NCBI GenBank assembly: GCA_018267575.1
Contig: JAFDYF010000068.1
Coordinates: 62,001 to 126,000, forward strand
DNA length: 64,000 bases
From: Bacteroidota bacterium
GTDB taxonomy: Bacteria; Bacteroidota; Bacteroidia; Chitinophagales; Chitinophagaceae
Direction: 5' to 3'
Shown here: positions 2,611-52,016 of the stretch, piece by piece
Numbering within the stretch: position 1 is the first letter of the stretch
Layout: every line of letters starts with the position of its first letter
Notes under the pieces: model-generated
Told to the model about the DNA's origin: nothing
Databases searched by the model: none
What the model saw: the letters and a program-made list of their open reading frames with translations, nothing else
Translations under genes and position numbers: made by a program

Positions 2611-5600
2611 TTAGGCTTTTTTTGTAACTAAAACTTTTAAGAGAACATCATTAATCTCAATTTCAGTGCCATTAGCTATTTCAGGAACAGATTCGATGGA
2701 ATCTGCCAAAATTTCGGCGCAAATATAACTTTTAAATTGACTTATGGATTCTTTTAGGGCAGGGGTATCGGCAACTTTTACTTGTATCCTATCAGTGAGC
2801 TCATACCCATTATCTTTTCGGATTTTCTGGATCCGGTTCACAAACTCACGGGCATTGCCTTCATTTATCAGCTCTGGGGTAATGGTCACATCCAAAGCAA
2901 CTGTCAGGGCGTTTTTGTTGGCAACAATCCATCCGGGTATGTCCTCACTGGTTATCTCTACTTCATTAGCTTGTAATATTAAGGGTTCGTTATCAATTAA
3001 CAAAGTATAAGACCCTTCTTTTTCCAATTTTCCTATATCTTCTTGGCTAAAAGCCGCTAAAACACTGGAAACAACCTTCATTTTAGCCCCCAGCTTCTTT
3101 CCTAGGGCTATAAAATTGGGTTTGATCTTCTTTTTGATAAAGCCATCGGTCTGATTTAAATATTTTATTTCTTTAATATTTACCTCATTCTTTATCAGAT
3201 TCTCTACAATTTTCAACTGCTCCTCCATCTGGGGGCTGAGTATGGGGATAAGCACTTTTTGCAAGGGCTGCCTCACTTTGATATTTACTTTTTTCCTAAG
3301 TGATAATATCAAGGAGGAAGCATCTTGGGCCAACTGCATCCGCTCTTCCAATTCTTTATCGATCGACGCCTCTTTTGCTTTGGGGAAATTGGCATGATGG
3401 ACTGATTTAATTTTTTGGTTATCAGTTACTTCGTTCAAGTTTGTAAATAACCAGTCCGCAAAAAATGGGGAAATCGGCGCTATCAGTAAAGAAACCGTTT
3501 CAAGACATTCATACAGGGTTTGATAGGCAGAAATTTTATCCTGTTCATATTCCCCTTTCCAGAAACGGCGGCGGCAAAGACGCACATACCAGTTGCTCAA
3601 ATGCTCATCCACAAATTCCTCGACCAGCCTTCCTGCAATTGTTGGCTCATAATCATCAAGATTATCAATTACATTTTTTATTAATGTATTTAAGGAAGAA
3701 AGAATCCATCTGTCGATTTCCGGTCTATCTTTTAAAGGGATATAAGCCTCTTTGAAGCCAAACCCATCCACATTGGCATATAGGGCAAAAAACTGATAAG
3801 TATTATATAGTGTACCAAAAAACTTACGCTGTATTTCTTTGATCCCGTCAATGTCAAATTTCATGTTCTCCCAAGGGGAGGCATTGGTAATGAGATACCA
3901 ACGGGTTGCATCTGCGCCAAACTCTTCAATGGTTTTGAATGGATCCACCACATTACCGAGACGCTTGCTCATTTTATTCCCATTCTTATCCAGTACCAAG
4001 CCGTTGGAAACAACGGTTTTGTAAGCAAGCCCACCACCTTGCAAAGCAGGTAGTTTGGATTCTTTCATCACTTCATCCAGACTTTCTTTAACCAAGCTTC
4101 CGATTGCATGAAGTGTATAAAACCAGCCACGGGTTTGATCCACACCCTCTGCAATAAAATCGGCAGGGTAGTTTTTTGAGAATGTTTCGATATTCTCAAA
4201 AGGGAAATGCCATTGTGCATAGGGCATGGCGCCGGAGTCGAACCACACATCGATAAGGTCGGGGACCCGCTTCATCGGTTTGCCCGATTTACTTACCAAG
4301 ATGATATCATCCATATAAGGTTTGTGCAGGTCTATGCTTTTAGGGTCCAGCGTTAAGCCTTTAGCGTTAAGCGTTTTGTTTGCTTTTTCTGATTCTGCTA
4401 TCAGTTCTTCGATAGAACCAATGCATATTTCCTCATCGCCATCCTCGGTTCTCCATACGGGCAAGGGGGTTCCCCAGAAACGGCTACGGCTTAGGTTCCA
4501 ATCCACCATATTCTCCAACCAATTGCCAAAGCGGCCTTCACCTGTTGACTTGGGTTTCCAATTGATAGTTTTGTTCAACTCTACCATCCTGTCTTTCAAG
4601 GCTGTGGTTTTGATAAACCAAGCATCGAGGGGATAATAGAGTATGGGTTTGTCTGTACGCCAGCAGTGCGGATATGTATGCTCGTATTTTTCTTTCTTGA
4701 AAAGTTTGTTTTCTTCTTGGAGCTTTAGCACGATACGATCATCCACACTCAAATATTTTTTGAGGTCTTTGATCTTCCCGTTTTTCTCCAATATCTCTTT
4801 CTGCCTTTTGAACTCAAGCTGTTTTTCTTCTTCGTTCAGGTATTCTTCTTTCACATATTCATCGCCATAGAGGAATACATCATCTTTGATGCCCGATAAA
4901 AATTTACCCCGCTTATCCACCATCGTCAAAATACCGATACCATATTTATTGCCCACCTTAAAGTCATCCGCACCAAAAGCCGGGGCCGTATGCACAATGC
5001 CCGTACCATCCTCCGTAGTAACAAAATCGCCCAACATGATCTTGAATGCGTTGGGGTTGTCGGATTTGTTGCACTCGAATGGAAGCAACTGTTCATAGGA
5101 AACCCCTTCAAGCTCTTTTCCTTTGAATTCAGCCAATATTTTCCACGGAAGCAGCTTTACTTCCGAAGTATAATTTTCGAAATCCCCATCCTCGCCTTCT
5201 TTTTTGAAATATTTACCCAATAATGCTTTTGCGAGGATCACATTCACGGGCACATGGGTGTAGGGATTAAACGTTTTTACTAAAACATAATCGATATTGG
5301 GTCCCACCGTGAGCCCCAAATTGGAGGGAAGGGTCCAAGGAGTGGTGGTCCAAGCTAGAAAGAAAGCCCCCCCACCCCCCAAAGGGGGGATTTCAGCGCT
5401 TTCAATCATTTTAAATATTTTTTTTGTGACTGGATGCTCTTTATTATCCCCTCCTTTAGAGGGGCTAAGGAGGCGGAACATGGCCACCGCACTCGTATCT
5501 TTTACATCCTTATATGTTCCCGGTTGGTTCAGTTCATGCGAGCTAAGACCTGTTCCCGCTGCTGGCGAATAGGGCTGTATGCTGACGCTTTCGTATAGCA

Positions 5601-6117
5601 AATTCTTATTATACAATTGCTTGAGCAGCCACCAAAGGGTTTCTATATACTTATTATCAAAAGTGATATATGGGTTTTTGAGATCGACCCAATAGCCCAT
5701 TTTGTTGGTCAGGTCATCCCATTTGTCTTTATACCGAAGCACGGCTTCGCGGCATTTTCGGTTATATTCTTCAACCGTTATTTTTTTCCCAATATCTTCT
5801 TTGGTAATGCCCAATTCCTTTTCTACCCCTAGCTCTACCGGCAAGCCATGCGTGTCCCATCCGCCTTTACGTTTTACCTGAAATCCACGCATGGTTTTAT
5901 AACGGCAAACCAAATCCTTTAAAGTTCTGGAAATCACATGGTGAATGCCGGGCATACCGTTGGCACTGGGTGGCCCCTCATAAAAAACAAAGGAGTCAGC
6001 CCCTTCCCGAAGCGCTACACTCTTTTCAAAAGCCTGGCCTTCCTCCCATTTAGATAAGATTTCCTGACCAATGGCTGGTAAATTTAAATGCTGATATTCC
6101 CTGTATCTGGCTGGCAT
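2611..6117 (-). CDS. ileS: Isoleucyl-tRNA synthetase
   Basis: A 1168-residue class I aminoacyl-tRNA synthetase charging tRNA-Ile in the cytoplasm. The ATP-site signature is GPPSANGMPGIHH near residue 50 (a HIGH variant), the editing domain begins at LAWTTTPWTLPSN near 255, and the KMSKS loop is NGNKMSKRLGN near 715. A helical anticodon-binding region and a long C-terminal domain follow. Length and motif style are of the longer, eukaryote-like IleRS type common in Bacteroidota. Two stretches look repeat-derived: residues about 215-251, encoded by a palindrome-ended element directly before the editing motif, and a loop near residue 580-590. A TAACTTTG promoter box lies 34 bases upstream of the ATG; the TraR-like gene follows after 5 bases. 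Confidence 0.97.
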   Translation of the reverse strand: MPARYREYQHLNLPAIGQEILSKWEEGQAFEKSVALREGADSFVFYEGPPSANGMPGIHHVISRTLKDLVCRYKTMRGFQVKRKGGWDTHGLPVELGVEKELGITKEDIGKKITVEEYNRKCREAVLRYKDKWDDLTNKMGYWVDLKNPYITFDNKYIETLWWLLKQLYNKNLLYESVSIQPYSPAAGTGLSSHELNQPGTYKDVKDTSAVAMFRLLSPSKGGDNKEHPVTKKIFKMIESAEIPPLGGGGAFFLAWTTTPWTLPSNLGLTVGPNIDYVLVKTFNPYTHVPVNVILAKALLGKYFKKEGEDGDFENYTSEVKLLPWKILAEFKGKELEGVSYEQLLPFECNKSDNPNAFKIMLGDFVTTEDGTGIVHTAPAFGADDFKVGNKYGIGILTMVDKRGKFLSGIKDDVFLYGDEYVKEEYLNEEEKQLEFKRQKEILEKNGKIKDLKKYLSVDDRIVLKLQEENKLFKKEKYEHTYPHCWRTDKPILYYPLDAWFIKTTALKDRMVELNKTINWKPKSTGEGRFGNWLENMVDWNLSRSRFWGTPLPVWRTEDGDEEICIGSIEELIAESEKANKTLNAKGLTLDPKSIDLHKPYMDDIILVSKSGKPMKRVPDLIDVWFDSGAMPYAQWHFPFENIETFSKNYPADFIAEGVDQTRGWFYTLHAIGSLVKESLDEVMKESKLPALQGGGLAYKTVVSNGLVLDKNGNKMSKRLGNVVDPFKTIEEFGADATRWYLITNASPWENMKFDIDGIKEIQRKFFGTLYNTYQFFALYANVDGFGFKEAYIPLKDRPEIDRWILSSLNTLIKNVIDNLDDYEPTIAGRLVEEFVDEHLSNWYVRLCRRRFWKGEYEQDKISAYQTLYECLETVSLLIAPISPFFADWLFTNLNEVTDNQKIKSVHHANFPKAKEASIDKELEERMQLAQDASSLILSLRKKVNIKVRQPLQKVLIPILSPQMEEQLKIVENLIKNEVNIKEIKYLNQTDGFIKKKIKPNFIALGKKLGAKMKVVSSVLAAFSQEDIGKLEKEGSYTLLIDNEPLILQANEVEITSEDIPGWIVANKNALTVALDVTITPELINEGNAREFVNRIQKIRKDNGYELTDRIQVKVADTPALKESISQFKSYICAEILADSIESVPEIANGTEIEINDVLLKVLVTKKA
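4349..4377 (-). repeat. AACGCTTAACGC-type repeat inside ileS
   Basis: Tandem, slightly diverged copies of AGCGTTAAGC (plus-strand reading) lie inside ileS and encode the loop NKTLNAKGLTLD just before the conserved HKPYMDD block. Similar AACGC-rich units lie between the DUF1501 and DUF1800 genes (26155-26265) and at the end of the MMPL gene (38570-38605). It reads as an intergenic repeat captured in frame. Confidence 0.5.
5365..5474. repeat. Palindrome-ended repeat element inserted in frame in ileS
   Basis: Two arms, 5365-5390 and 5447-5474, are inverted copies of one G/C-run unit, and each arm is itself a small palindrome of four to six G/C pairs around AAA or TTT. About 55 bases of ordinary sequence lie between them. 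The whole of about 110 bases is read through in the ileS frame as roughly 37 residues, starting LLSPSKGG and ending PPLGGGGA, that do not fit the IleRS family around them. It resembles a small non-autonomous, MITE-like element. No flanking target duplication was recognised. Confidence 0.7.
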
Positions 6118-9895: not shown

Positions 9896-9903
9896 ATTTG
9901 GGA

Positions 9904-10006
9904 ATGGTTAATAGTGAATGGTGAAAACTATAAAAAGTTAACTATTCCTAAAACCACATCGAACTTTCACCATTGACCATTAACTATTCACTATTTACTA
10001 TTCACA
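9904..10006. repeat. Degenerate palindromic repeat between hemA and hemC
   Basis: The left arm GGTTAATAGTGAATGGTGAAA (with one extra base at most) finds its inverted counterpart at 9964-9995, followed by further ACTATTCAC units. The same CATTCAC/ACTATTCAC words occur at 1163-1197, inside hemC (10380-10405), near the hemD stop (11652) and inside alaS. The element could fold in mRNA and reduce hemC expression relative to hemA (inference). Confidence 0.6.
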
Positions 10007-10012
10007 AAAAAA

Positions 10013-10960
10013 ATGAGTACAGCAATAAGGATCGGCACTAGGGAAAGTCAACTCGCCGCATGGCAAGCTACCCTTGTAAAAGATAGTTTGAAAGAACATG
10101 GCATAGAGGCTGAATTATGTTTTATTAAAAGTGAAGGTGATATTGACCTGAAGACACCATTATATGAAATGGGTGTACAGGGTATTTTTACAAAAACCTT
10201 GGACGCCGCCCTGCTGAATAATAAGATAGACATTGCCGTTCACTCCATGAAGGATGTGCCTACCCAATTGGCAATCGGAATGGCACAAGCAGCAGTTTTA
10301 AAAAGAGCATCGCACAAAGACCTCTTGGTAGTGAAAGATGGATTGCCCAAAATGAATGAGGCACTAAAACATCCAGGTTCTATTCACCATTCACCATTCA
10401 CTATTGCCACCAGCAGCATCCGCCGTAAAGCCCAATGGCTACACCGCTATCCAAACCATCAATTAGAAAATTTGAGGGGAAATGTAAATACAAGATTAAA
10501 AAAGCTGGAGGAAAGCAATTGGGATGGGGCCATTTTCGCTGCGGCTGGGTTGGAGAGAATTAATCTTCGCCCCGAAAATTCGATAGAACTTGATTGGATG
10601 TTGCCCGCACCAGCCCAAGGAGCAATCACTATTGTTTGCAGGGATGAGGACCATGAAACCAAAGAGAAACTAGCCCTACTTAACGATGAAGCGACTGCCC
10701 TTTGTACCAAAATTGAAAAAGAATTTTTAAGAACATTATTAGGTGGATGCTCCACTCCCATCAGTGCATTGGCAGAAATAGAAGAAGATGAATTGTTTTT
10801 CCGGGGGAATATTTTTTCATTGGATGGAAGAAAAAAAGTGGAGATTGAAAAAGTGCTTCCCATCGATACCATTGCCAACCTTGGCAAATGGGCTGCAGAA
10901 GAATTGTTGAGCAATGGGGGGCAAGAAATAGCCAATGAAATTAGAAATGCCACAAAATAA
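10013..10960 (+). CDS. hemC: Hydroxymethylbilane synthase (porphobilinogen deaminase)
   Basis: A 315-residue enzyme joining four porphobilinogen units into hydroxymethylbilane. Visible family features are GTRESQLAAWQA at the N-terminus, VHSMKDVPT near residue 80, TSSIRRKAQ near 133, GNVNTRLKKLEE near 150, and LGGCSTPISA near 242 with the Cys that carries the dipyrromethane cofactor. Just before TSSIRRK, residues about 122-131 (SIHHSPFTI) are encoded by the intergenic-type repeat CATTCACCATTCAC. The insertion sits in a loop and keeps the frame, so the enzyme is probably active. The 3' end overlaps hemD, which suggests coupled translation. Confidence 0.96.
   Translation: MSTAIRIGTRESQLAAWQATLVKDSLKEHGIEAELCFIKSEGDIDLKTPLYEMGVQGIFTKTLDAALLNNKIDIAVHSMKDVPTQLAIGMAQAAVLKRASHKDLLVVKDGLPKMNEALKHPGSIHHSPFTIATSSIRRKAQWLHRYPNHQLENLRGNVNTRLKKLEESNWDGAIFAAAGLERINLRPENSIELDWMLPAPAQGAITIVCRDEDHETKEKLALLNDEATALCTKIEKEFLRTLLGGCSTPISALAEIEEDELFFRGNIFSLDGRKKVEIEKVLPIDTIANLGKWAAEELLSNGGQEIANEIRNATK
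10380..10405 (+). repeat. CATTCAC repeat inside hemC
   Basis: Three direct units of the form (C)TATTCACCATTCAC lie within hemC and are translated as HHSPFTI. The same words make up the hemA-hemC intergenic repeat 380 bases upstream. Confidence 0.6.
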
Positions 10961-49241: not shown

Positions 49242-49286
49242 ATTCTTAGCAAGCCAACTAACAACCAAAGATTGTTCCATAATATG

Positions 49287-52016
49287 ATGACAAGCGCAGA
49301 GATACGAAAAAAATTTTTGGAATTCTTTCAGTCCAAAGGTCATAGCATTGTGCCTTCCGCACCCATCGTGATCAAAAACGACCCTACTTTACTGTTCACC
49401 AACGCGGGCATGAACCAGTTCAAGGATTATTTTTTGGGGAACAAGAAGCCACCGCACACAAGAGTAGCCGATACCCAAAAATGCCTGAGGGTAAGCGGCA
49501 AGCACAACGATCTGGAAGAGGTGGGCGTGGATACATACCACCATACCATGTTCGAGATGCTGGGCAACTGGAGCTTTGGCGATTATTTTAAAAAAGAAGC
49601 GATCGCATGGAGTTGGGAACTATTGACAGAACAGTATGGACTTGATAAAAACCGCTTATATGTGACCGTTTTTGAGGGAGATAAGAAAGAAGGCCTGCCT
49701 AAAGATGAGGAAGCCTATGATGAATGGAAAAAATGGATACCCGAGGAGCGGATCCTTTTGGGAAACAAAAAGGATAATTTTTGGGAAATGGGCGACACAG
49801 GCCCCTGCGGCCCCTGTACCGAAATACATGTGGATTGCAGGACCGATGAGGAAAGAAAAAAAATAGATGGAAAAACCTTGGTGAACAATGACCATCCCCA
49901 AGTTATTGAGATATGGAACAATGTGTTTATACAATATAACCGGTCAAAAGATAGTAGCCTAGAGCCCTTGCCCGCCAAACATGTGGATACCGGTATGGGA
50001 TTGGAAAGATTGGTGCGTGTGCTGCAGGGCAAGCAGAGCAATTACGATACGGATATATTTACAGGAACCATTAATTCAATATGTCAGTTAGGCAATAAAA
50101 TATATTATTCTTCTCCCCAAAGTATAGAGCAAGAAAACTCAAATATTGCAATGCGGGTAATTTCGGATCATATCCGTGCTGTATCATTTTGTATTGCCGA
50201 TGGTCAATTGCCTTCTAATACAGGGGCTGGCTATGTCGTAAGAAGAATCCTTAGACGTGCCGTTCGGTACGGCTATTCCTATTTAAATATGAATGAACCT
50301 TTCTTCTTCAAATTAGTTCCCATATTAGCTAAACAATTTGAAAATGTTTTTCCAGAATTATTAAGCCAACTCAACTTTGTAGAGACTGTTATTAAAGAAG
50401 AAGAATCATCTTTTTATAGAACCCTTTCATCAGGCATTCGAAAATTCAAGAATTATACTATTGAGGCAAACTCACAACTCTCTGGAGGATATGTAGCTAA
50501 CATTAATGATGATGAGTCTACAAAAAGAGAATACATAGAAACCCAAACTAAATACTTTGAATTGAGAAGCAACAAAATTGTTGCTGGAGAATTTGCTTTT
50601 GAGCTTTATGATACGTTTGGATTTCCAATTGATTTAACAAATTTAATGGCAAGAGAAATTGGGTGGAAAGTTGATATGGGTGCTTTTGAAATTGCATTAC
50701 AAAAACAAAAATCACGTTCCCGTGCAGCCACAGCAATCGATACAGAAGATTGGATCGTGCTGGATGATCAGTCACAAAACCAATTTGTGGGATATGATAG
50801 CTTGGAGACCAAAACCAAGATCATCAAATACCGGAAAGTAAAAGCAAAAGGCAAAGAAGCTTATCAACTGGTATTAGCCTCCACCCCTTTCTATGCTGAA
50901 AGTGGTGGTCAGGTGGGTGATACGGGTGTGTTGACCATTCAGCATTCGCCATTCAACATATTCGATACCAAAAAGGAAAACGATCTGATCATCCATTTTG
51001 CAGAAACACTGCCCGATGATGTGAGTGGTGAGATCATTGCAAAAGTAGATGCGCCCAAACGCAAATCCACGGCCGTTCACCATTCAGCCACCCATTTGTT
51101 GCATGCCGCATTAAGACAGGTATTGGGCAACCATGTGGCACAAAAAGGATCCTTGGTAAATGCCGAGCACCTGCGTTTCGACTTTTCGCATTTTGCCAAA
51201 ATGACCGATGAAGAAATCAGCAAAGTGGAGACCTTGGTAAATGAAAAAATAAGGCAAAACATTCCAGTAGTGATCAAGGAAATGCCCAAGGAGGAAGCAC
51301 TTAAATTGGGGGCAATGGCATTGTTTGGTGAAAAATATGGGGATGTGGTCAGGGTAGTGGTCATGGACCCAAATTATTCGGTGGAACTCTGTGGCGGCAC
51401 CCATGTAGGCGCTACCGGGGAACTTGGTTTTTTTAAGATAGAACACGAAACCGCCGTGGCTGCTGGCGTGCGCCGTATCGAAGCTGTTTGCGGATTAGCG
51501 GCTGAGAAATATGTGAATGAAAAATTGGGACAAATCCAATCTATCAGTGAATCTTTAAAGAACCCAAAAGACATCCATAAATCCATTGAAAACCTATTGA
51601 CCGAAAACAACGAACTAAAAAAACATATTGAGCATCTGGAAGCCAGACAACTGGTAACCGTGCGGAACGAACTTTTGCAGAAAGATGAGATCATCAACCA
51701 AATAAACTTTATCGGCAGCGTGATTGAAGTGTCCTCCGCCGATGCATTAAAAAAGCTTTGCTTTGACCTTAAAAACCATTTGCGCGATTTTGTGGTTGTG
51801 CTTTGTGCCAATATCGGTGGTAAACCCTTTGTAGCCATCAGCATCGCCGATAATGTGTCAGCAGCCAAAAATTTCGATGCCAGCAAAATCATCAAAGAAC
51901 ATATTGCCCCTCTTATTAAAGGCGGCGGTGGCGGTCAAAAAACATTGGCAACCGCCGGCGGCCAAGATGCCAGTAATCTTTCATCAGTGATTGATAAAGT
52001 AAAAAGTTTATTGTAG
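49287..52016 (+). CDS. alaS: Alanyl-tRNA synthetase
   Basis: About 909 residues from ATG 49287 (MTSAEIRKKFLEFFQSKGH); an adjacent ATG at 49284 is possible. It charges tRNA-Ala and clears Ser-tRNA-Ala. Class II core marks are FTNAGMNQFKDYFLG and YHHTMFEMLGNWSFGDYF near residue 90; the editing zinc ligands are in HHSATHLLHA near 597 and ELCGGTHVG near 700. Two oddities: residues about 255-470 come from a markedly AT-richer stretch with an extra segment before AFELYDTFGFPIDLT, and residues about 549-559 (TIQHSPFNIF) come from a CATTCAGCATTCGCC repeat. The editing and catalytic sites look intact. Confidence 0.96.
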   Translation: MTSAEIRKKFLEFFQSKGHSIVPSAPIVIKNDPTLLFTNAGMNQFKDYFLGNKKPPHTRVADTQKCLRVSGKHNDLEEVGVDTYHHTMFEMLGNWSFGDYFKKEAIAWSWELLTEQYGLDKNRLYVTVFEGDKKEGLPKDEEAYDEWKKWIPEERILLGNKKDNFWEMGDTGPCGPCTEIHVDCRTDEERKKIDGKTLVNNDHPQVIEIWNNVFIQYNRSKDSSLEPLPAKHVDTGMGLERLVRVLQGKQSNYDTDIFTGTINSICQLGNKIYYSSPQSIEQENSNIAMRVISDHIRAVSFCIADGQLPSNTGAGYVVRRILRRAVRYGYSYLNMNEPFFFKLVPILAKQFENVFPELLSQLNFVETVIKEEESSFYRTLSSGIRKFKNYTIEANSQLSGGYVANINDDESTKREYIETQTKYFELRSNKIVAGEFAFELYDTFGFPIDLTNLMAREIGWKVDMGAFEIALQKQKSRSRAATAIDTEDWIVLDDQSQNQFVGYDSLETKTKIIKYRKVKAKGKEAYQLVLASTPFYAESGGQVGDTGVLTIQHSPFNIFDTKKENDLIIHFAETLPDDVSGEIIAKVDAPKRKSTAVHHSATHLLHAALRQVLGNHVAQKGSLVNAEHLRFDFSHFAKMTDEEISKVETLVNEKIRQNIPVVIKEMPKEEALKLGAMALFGEKYGDVVRVVVMDPNYSVELCGGTHVGATGELGFFKIEHETAVAAGVRRIEAVCGLAAEKYVNEKLGQIQSISESLKNPKDIHKSIENLLTENNELKKHIEHLEARQLVTVRNELLQKDEIINQINFIGSVIEVSSADALKKLCFDLKNHLRDFVVVLCANIGGKPFVAISIADNVSAAKNFDASKIIKEHIAPLIKGGGGGQKTLATAGGQDASNLSSVIDKVKSLL
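50933..50963 (+). repeat. CATTCAGC/CATTCGCC repeat inside alaS
   Basis: GACCATTCAGCATTCGCCAT and further ATTCAAC continue the CATTCACC repeat type of 9904-10006 and hemC. It encodes TIQHSPFNIF within the alaS editing-domain lead-in, next to GDTGVL. Confidence 0.5.

Follow-up and report, generated by a model that had tools for sequence, protein, structure and literature searches.

Why does DNA that is normally found between genes appear inside the gene of an essential enzyme, and is it there as repeat DNA or as a peptide that the enzyme needs? This question is raised by hemC in the window, the whole stretch of 64,000 nucleotides analysed in this work. A preliminary description of this DNA had reported that the same repeat words lie in hemC, just before the TSSIRRK motif, and in the hemA-hemC gap 380 bases away, and had proposed that intergenic repeat DNA spread into a loop of the enzyme while keeping the frame. 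Here we have used repeat statistics, comparison with related genomes and a structural model to decipher what this word is and how it may have come to its present place.

Results

The ORF at positions 10013-10960 of the plus strand codes for an intact protein of 315 aa with the Pfam domains PF01379 and PF03900, and NCBIfam TIGR00212 assigns it to hemC (hydroxymethylbilane synthase or porphobilinogen deaminase) with 279.7 bits against a cut-off of 164; it is a single-copy gene in this genome. HemC alignments and a gap-free homologue from the nearest relative, L124, delimit a length-variable stretch of loop codons between DLL and ATSSIRR (10328-10408, plus strand, VVKDGLPKMNEALKHPGSIHHSPFTIA). 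Within it lies, at 10382-10405 of the plus strand, the sequence ATTCACCATTCACCATTCACTATT, a 7-nt array of 3.4 copies (TRF) that reads ATT, CACCATT twice and CACTATT and forms the right arm of a hairpin. In the hemC frame it codes for residues 124-131, IHHSPFTI, directly ahead of ATSSIRR. The lag-7 run of this loop gave p = 0.003, the floor of the 300 shuffles used, both against codon-order shuffling and against synonymous recoding. The repeat in the hemC loop is a DNA-level heptamer sequence, and as an array of 7-nt units beyond chance it belongs with the heptanucleotide tandem repeats.

The hemA-hemC gap (9896-10012) holds the same heptamer words as an intergenic hairpin, whose left arm is at 9900-9926 (minus strand; GTTAATAGTGAATGGTGAAA on the plus strand) and whose right arm, at 9965-10005 of the plus strand, stops 7 bases before the hemC start codon. 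Window-wide, ATTCACYATTCAC has 23 matches with up to 2 mismatches where 3.7 are expected, a count that 0 of 100 shuffles reached. In the whole genome, an assembly of 4.96 Mb in 116 contigs that is of Chitinophagaceae type by its named relatives, a 17-mer gave 89 matches and its reversed-pattern control 0, and a looser 20-mer gave 264 matches against 11 for the control. These counts, together with TRF, bear out the first part of the preliminary description, the presence of the same words in gene and gap. The 73 arrays examined around the genome-wide matches are nearly all intergenic or at doubtful ORF starts, as in other heptanucleotide repeats that are mainly intergenic, and often consist of two inverted arms; the copies vary in length and have no conserved ends except a frequent TTTCAC start. 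Four of the 73 lie inside conserved coding sequences, namely hemC, tilS (L087), aroA (L102) and the gene of a ligase-associated DEXH helicase (L111). The word in hemC is the right arm of a hairpin from the same heptamer family that fills the intergenic regions of this genome. Perfect GTCAATA heptamer arrays are found at contig ends of the same genome (L091, 7-54; L120, 1494-1541), where the assembly probably broke off at long arrays, so that the length of arrays is underestimated.

Comparison with L124 shows that the array is not a fresh copy from the neighbouring gap. The L124 loop is of equal length, aligns without gaps to that of the window and carries both hairpin arms (VVNRQWSTVNELLSSPFTTHHSPLTVATSS), with a significant array (p = 0.001); its hemA-hemC gap also holds a hairpin. 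In the window, GTSAATR words at 10328-10363 (plus strand) mark a decayed left arm, with 24 of 36 consensus matches (p = 0.0006 against codon shuffles) compared with 30 of 36 in L124, and the direct stem test detected no significant intact stem in the window's hemC loop (p = 0.18). What is seen in the window's hemC is the right arm, the better preserved one, of an older hairpin within the gene; the left arm has decayed, and a recent local spread from the gap 380 bases away has to be abandoned as an explanation. We had also considered an exact 21-nt insertion, as removal of HHSPFTI would leave GSIATSS, comparable to GSIVGTSS in E. coli; this model was dropped because an older hairpin shared with L124, seen in the gap-free alignment and the full hairpin there, is simpler.

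The analysis was then extended to 115 distinct hemC genes, obtained from about 50 genomes of the family and 80 named records. In the family, the loop from DLLVxK to ATSSIRR varies strongly, with lengths of about 20 to 59 aa. Lag-7 identity is 0.385 in the loops against 0.237 in the rest of the gene and lag-14 identity in the loops is 0.353; only these two lags stand out, others being at about 0.25. Individually, 39 of the 115 loops are significant against codon-order shuffling (p ≤ 0.01) and 33 against synonymous recoding, while six control windows of the same genes gave 0 or 1 of 115 each, so the signal lies in the DNA and not merely in the peptide. Long complementary stems (direct stem test, p ≤ 0.01) were found in 14 of the 39 repeat loops and in none of the 76 loops with no repeat; this test took the place of MFE folding against codon shuffles, a weak test (11/115 at p ≤ 0.01). 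The hemC loop is therefore a recurrent heptamer site in Chitinophagaceae, and hemC of the window is no isolated case: about a third of the sampled genes carry a repeat, in several heptamer families, and about two thirds have none. Among 29 HemC loops sampled at class level (28 from other families; 20-28 aa), which were retrieved by protein search as a degenerate DNA pattern had returned only family members, none showed a significant heptamer array. The preliminary description had pointed out that conservation of HHSPFTI-like residues in distant HemC proteins would speak against repeat DNA, and distant HemC proteins lack HHSPFTI. The loops of L160 and L142 hold unrelated palindromes (CCCGATAGCTATCGGG and CCTGCCCGAGCGACCGCTCAGTCGGGCGGG, respectively) nested between heptamer arms, which suggests that the hemC loop accepts several kinds of repeat.

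The type of repeat changes between relatives. On a tree of the HemC core, built with the loop left out, the repeat is gained or lost at least 24 times; support is missing for many of the deep branches, and therefore a single capture followed by losses and many captures both fit the tree. In one close group with full support, L154, L165/L041 and L192, closely similar HemC cores carry three unrelated heptamer hairpins of the CCACTTA, CACTACT and CGACTTT types. In the clearest case, the unit ACTTTCG, which is that of the L192 hemC loop, has 75 matches in the L192 genome and 0-1 in eleven others; GGACCAT has 34 matches in the L190 genome, 6 in that of L173 and none elsewhere. ATTCACC is widespread in the group and absent from G036, a genome of the same genus whose loop is short and has no repeat. 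The L154 unit departs from this pattern, with fewer matches at home (3) than in the L165 genome (19). The hemC loop thus tends to have the repeat of the genome it belongs to, the genome-match test being clean for two units only, and in at least some genomes the heptamer type of the loop is an abundant one of their own. The hemA-hemC gap of L154 contains a hairpin of yet another repeat, made of words similar to TTTAAATCAT, so the repeat type can differ between neighbouring sites of a single genome.

That the array keeps the hemC frame, as first noted, is correct, and is partly explained by the unit itself: CACCATT and CACTATT are stop-free in all sense frames, and three units make exactly the seven codons of HHSPFTI. 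The antisense arms of CAC-type units would contain TGA or TAG, and GAC-type units have a sense stop in every register. A broader statement, that the arrays are stop-free in all frames, was rejected, as it holds only for CAC-type units and most antisense readings have stops. In the left arms, G never occurs at the phase of GT(G/C)AAT at which it would create TGA, all 13 cases being C, compared with 37 G and 15 C at the other phases (p = 2e-6). The right arms go in the same direction and fall short of significance (0 and 19, compared with 7 and 32; p = 0.08). Both p-values are optimistic, as related sequences were counted as independent. Stop-producing variants are missing at the phase where translation would end, the pattern that selection on translated repeat DNA should leave.

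In an AlphaFold model of HemC (mean pLDDT 79.6), which has the HemC fold (TM 0.81 to 1ypn), residues 122-127 form a low-confidence linker (pLDDT <50) between a helix and the strand that leads to ATSSIRR, and the link at the corresponding place is shorter in E. coli HemC. The array thus lies in a tolerant linker beside the conserved motif and not within it. The loop, which adjoins the conserved strand ATSSIRR, tolerates changes in length, and we infer that it has no fixed sequence requirement.

Discussion

Our results support the central claim of the preliminary description, that intergenic repeat DNA is translated, in frame, in a loop of an essential enzyme. Judging from the genome sequences, many bacteria of a single family, from soil and water, appear to translate a normally intergenic heptamer within the essential haem-synthesis gene hemC as a changing, tolerated loop. 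Most probably, dispersed non-coding heptamer hairpin DNA is resident in the tolerant HemC loop, where it is turned over with the repeat family of the genome and filtered by selection on the coding sequence. We propose that heptamer hairpins would be copied between dispersed sites by slippage and template switching, by ectopic recombination or through a mobile intermediate; that copies landing in frame and stop-free in the HemC loop would survive, there being presumably no fixed sequence need at this place; and that old arms would later decay, as the left arm of the hemC hairpin in the window has done, or convert to the current heptamer type of their genome. A more far-reaching idea, which we put forward tentatively and hold to be somewhat doubtful, is that the genome-wide heptamer hairpin families of Chitinophagaceae are replaced as a set, with orthologous sites, including the HemC loop, being rewritten while the hairpin form is kept. 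If this were true, short inverted repeats would have to be actively copied or converted, even within an essential gene.

Could the peptide itself be what is selected? HHSPFTI and VNGEWSMVN might be ordinary loop peptides whose codons look repetitive by coincidence, and LG(F/Y)VNGEW, which recurs in several related genera, may be conserved as a peptide there. As a general explanation this is refuted by the 33 loops that are significant against synonymous recoding; moreover, a lag of 7 is no codon multiple, and unrelated peptides swap in closely similar HemC proteins, which leaves this reading with very little probability. Even less credible is an assembly or binning artefact, for which it could be said that many of the genomes are metagenome-assembled: the ORFs are intact, and the repeat is also present in independent isolates (Longitalea arenae L138, Niastella populi L155, Ferruginibacter paludis L161, Lacibacter luteus L144 and Foetidibacter luteolus L143), so it is not an artefact of such assemblies.

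Two other explanations deserve more weight, and we regard both as unlikely. The hemC hairpin might be kept for a function of the nucleic acid (pausing, attenuation, mRNA stability or protein binding) that tunes haem synthesis, with the protein loop tolerating it. The long complementary arms retained in 14 of the 39 repeat loops, the persistence of a hairpin in the L154, L165 and L192 clade despite wholly different sequence, and the hairpin in the adjoining hemA-hemC gap of both the window and L124 are in line with such a function; most sampled relatives, however, have no repeat in the hemC loop, the left arm of the window has decayed, and similar captures occur in unrelated proteins. The other, to which we give about the same small chance, is insertion into hemC of a REP- or MITE-type element that a transposase, of the Y1 (RAYT-like) or another kind, would have mobilised. 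The inverted arms and dispersed intergenic copies recall such elements, and the genome has three Y1_Tnp genes; yet none of these three loci is flanked by arrays (within about 1.5 kb), the copies have neither fixed length nor, beyond the frequent TTTCAC, conserved ends, and the unit differs between genomes. Mobilisation by RAYT was consequently rejected as a candidate, and examination of the three Y1 transposase genes yielded no mobilising enzyme for the arrays.

How does this resident heptamer DNA relate to known repeats? The tRNA-Leu(UAA) intron of Nostoc holds a stem-loop with heptamer repeats whose class differs between close strains at one site; those repeats are in a self-splicing intron, and the hemC repeats in a protein-coding gene. 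With REP/BIME and RAYT elements and with MITEs the arrays share short, dispersed, mostly intergenic inverted repeats, but here no linked transposase and no fixed ends were found. According to PMC10969869, the Rickettsia palindromic elements (Ogata et al. 2000, 2002) are about 150 bp long and form families with a conserved peptide. Like them, the heptamer hairpins are dispersed palindromic repeats, present between genes and in frame in unrelated conserved proteins whose fold apparently tolerates them; unlike them, they have a 7-nt unit, are variable in length and ends, can have different units at the same site in close relatives, and hit the loop of one gene repeatedly across a family. The hemC repeat thus resembles these elements in effect and is not one of them. 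The TAACTGA heptanucleotide arrays of Beggiatoaceae, Cyanobacteria and some Bacteroidetes are reported to be direct and mainly intergenic (PMC4679880); they, like the long simple sequence repeats cited in this paper from Mrazek et al. 2007, are also lineage-specific 7-base tandem arrays in many, mostly intergenic copies. In contrast to the TAACTGA arrays, those described here are often arranged as two inverted arms and are translated as part of enzymes, and their unit, YATTSAC, places them outside that family.

Translated palindromes in Rickettsia (PMC10969869) and heptamer arrays in several phyla (PMC4679880) were thus already known. What seems new is that heptamer hairpins return to the same enzyme loop in many members of a family and that close relatives have different types of them; the part of the literature covered by our search contained no report of this, nor of translated heptamer hairpins in Chitinophagaceae or in HemC. 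With the HemC loop, nature has in effect repeated one experiment in many members of a bacterial family, namely to translate non-coding repeat DNA at a single site of an essential enzyme. With different types at the same site in close genomes, the old and unsolved question of where bacterial heptamer repeats come from and how they spread becomes testable. The case also cautions against taking loops of such proteins for selected peptide, as their sequence can be repeat DNA.

Other proteins and repeat families

The L192 genome contains 73 ACTTTCG arrays, 8 of them inside ORFs: both hemC arms, both arms of a hairpin in an epimerase-like gene (L251), three in T9SS-like linkers and one other, the epimerase-like and T9SS-like labels being given by reading the sequence and not by family search. 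In the window's genome, the ligase-associated DEXH helicase carries VNRQWSMVNSEN at L111 1501-1534, followed by a second repeat-like stretch, STPNPKPSTLNPTTF, and one loop of this protein seems to hold two repeat families.

The preliminary description had counted hemC as a second case beside ileS, a comparison that has to be corrected, because the ileS palindromes are different and G-rich and so are not the same repeat. In ileS (2611-6117, minus strand), G/C-rich palindromes at 5367-5389 and 5448-5464 (CCCCCCTTTGGGGGG and CCCCTCTAAAGGAGGGG) code for IPPLGGGGA and SPSKGG. CCCCTTNAGGGG words, as in ileS, showed no enrichment in the 64-kb window at 2 mismatches. The HemC loop of L152 holds CCCCCTTTAGGGG, a word related to the ileS palindromes, so that loops may have captured the second repeat family as well. 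Finally, in the alaS ORF (49272-52016) there is a weak ACCATTC heptamer array at 50934-50959 of the window (TRF score 31), which may be another decayed capture or chance.
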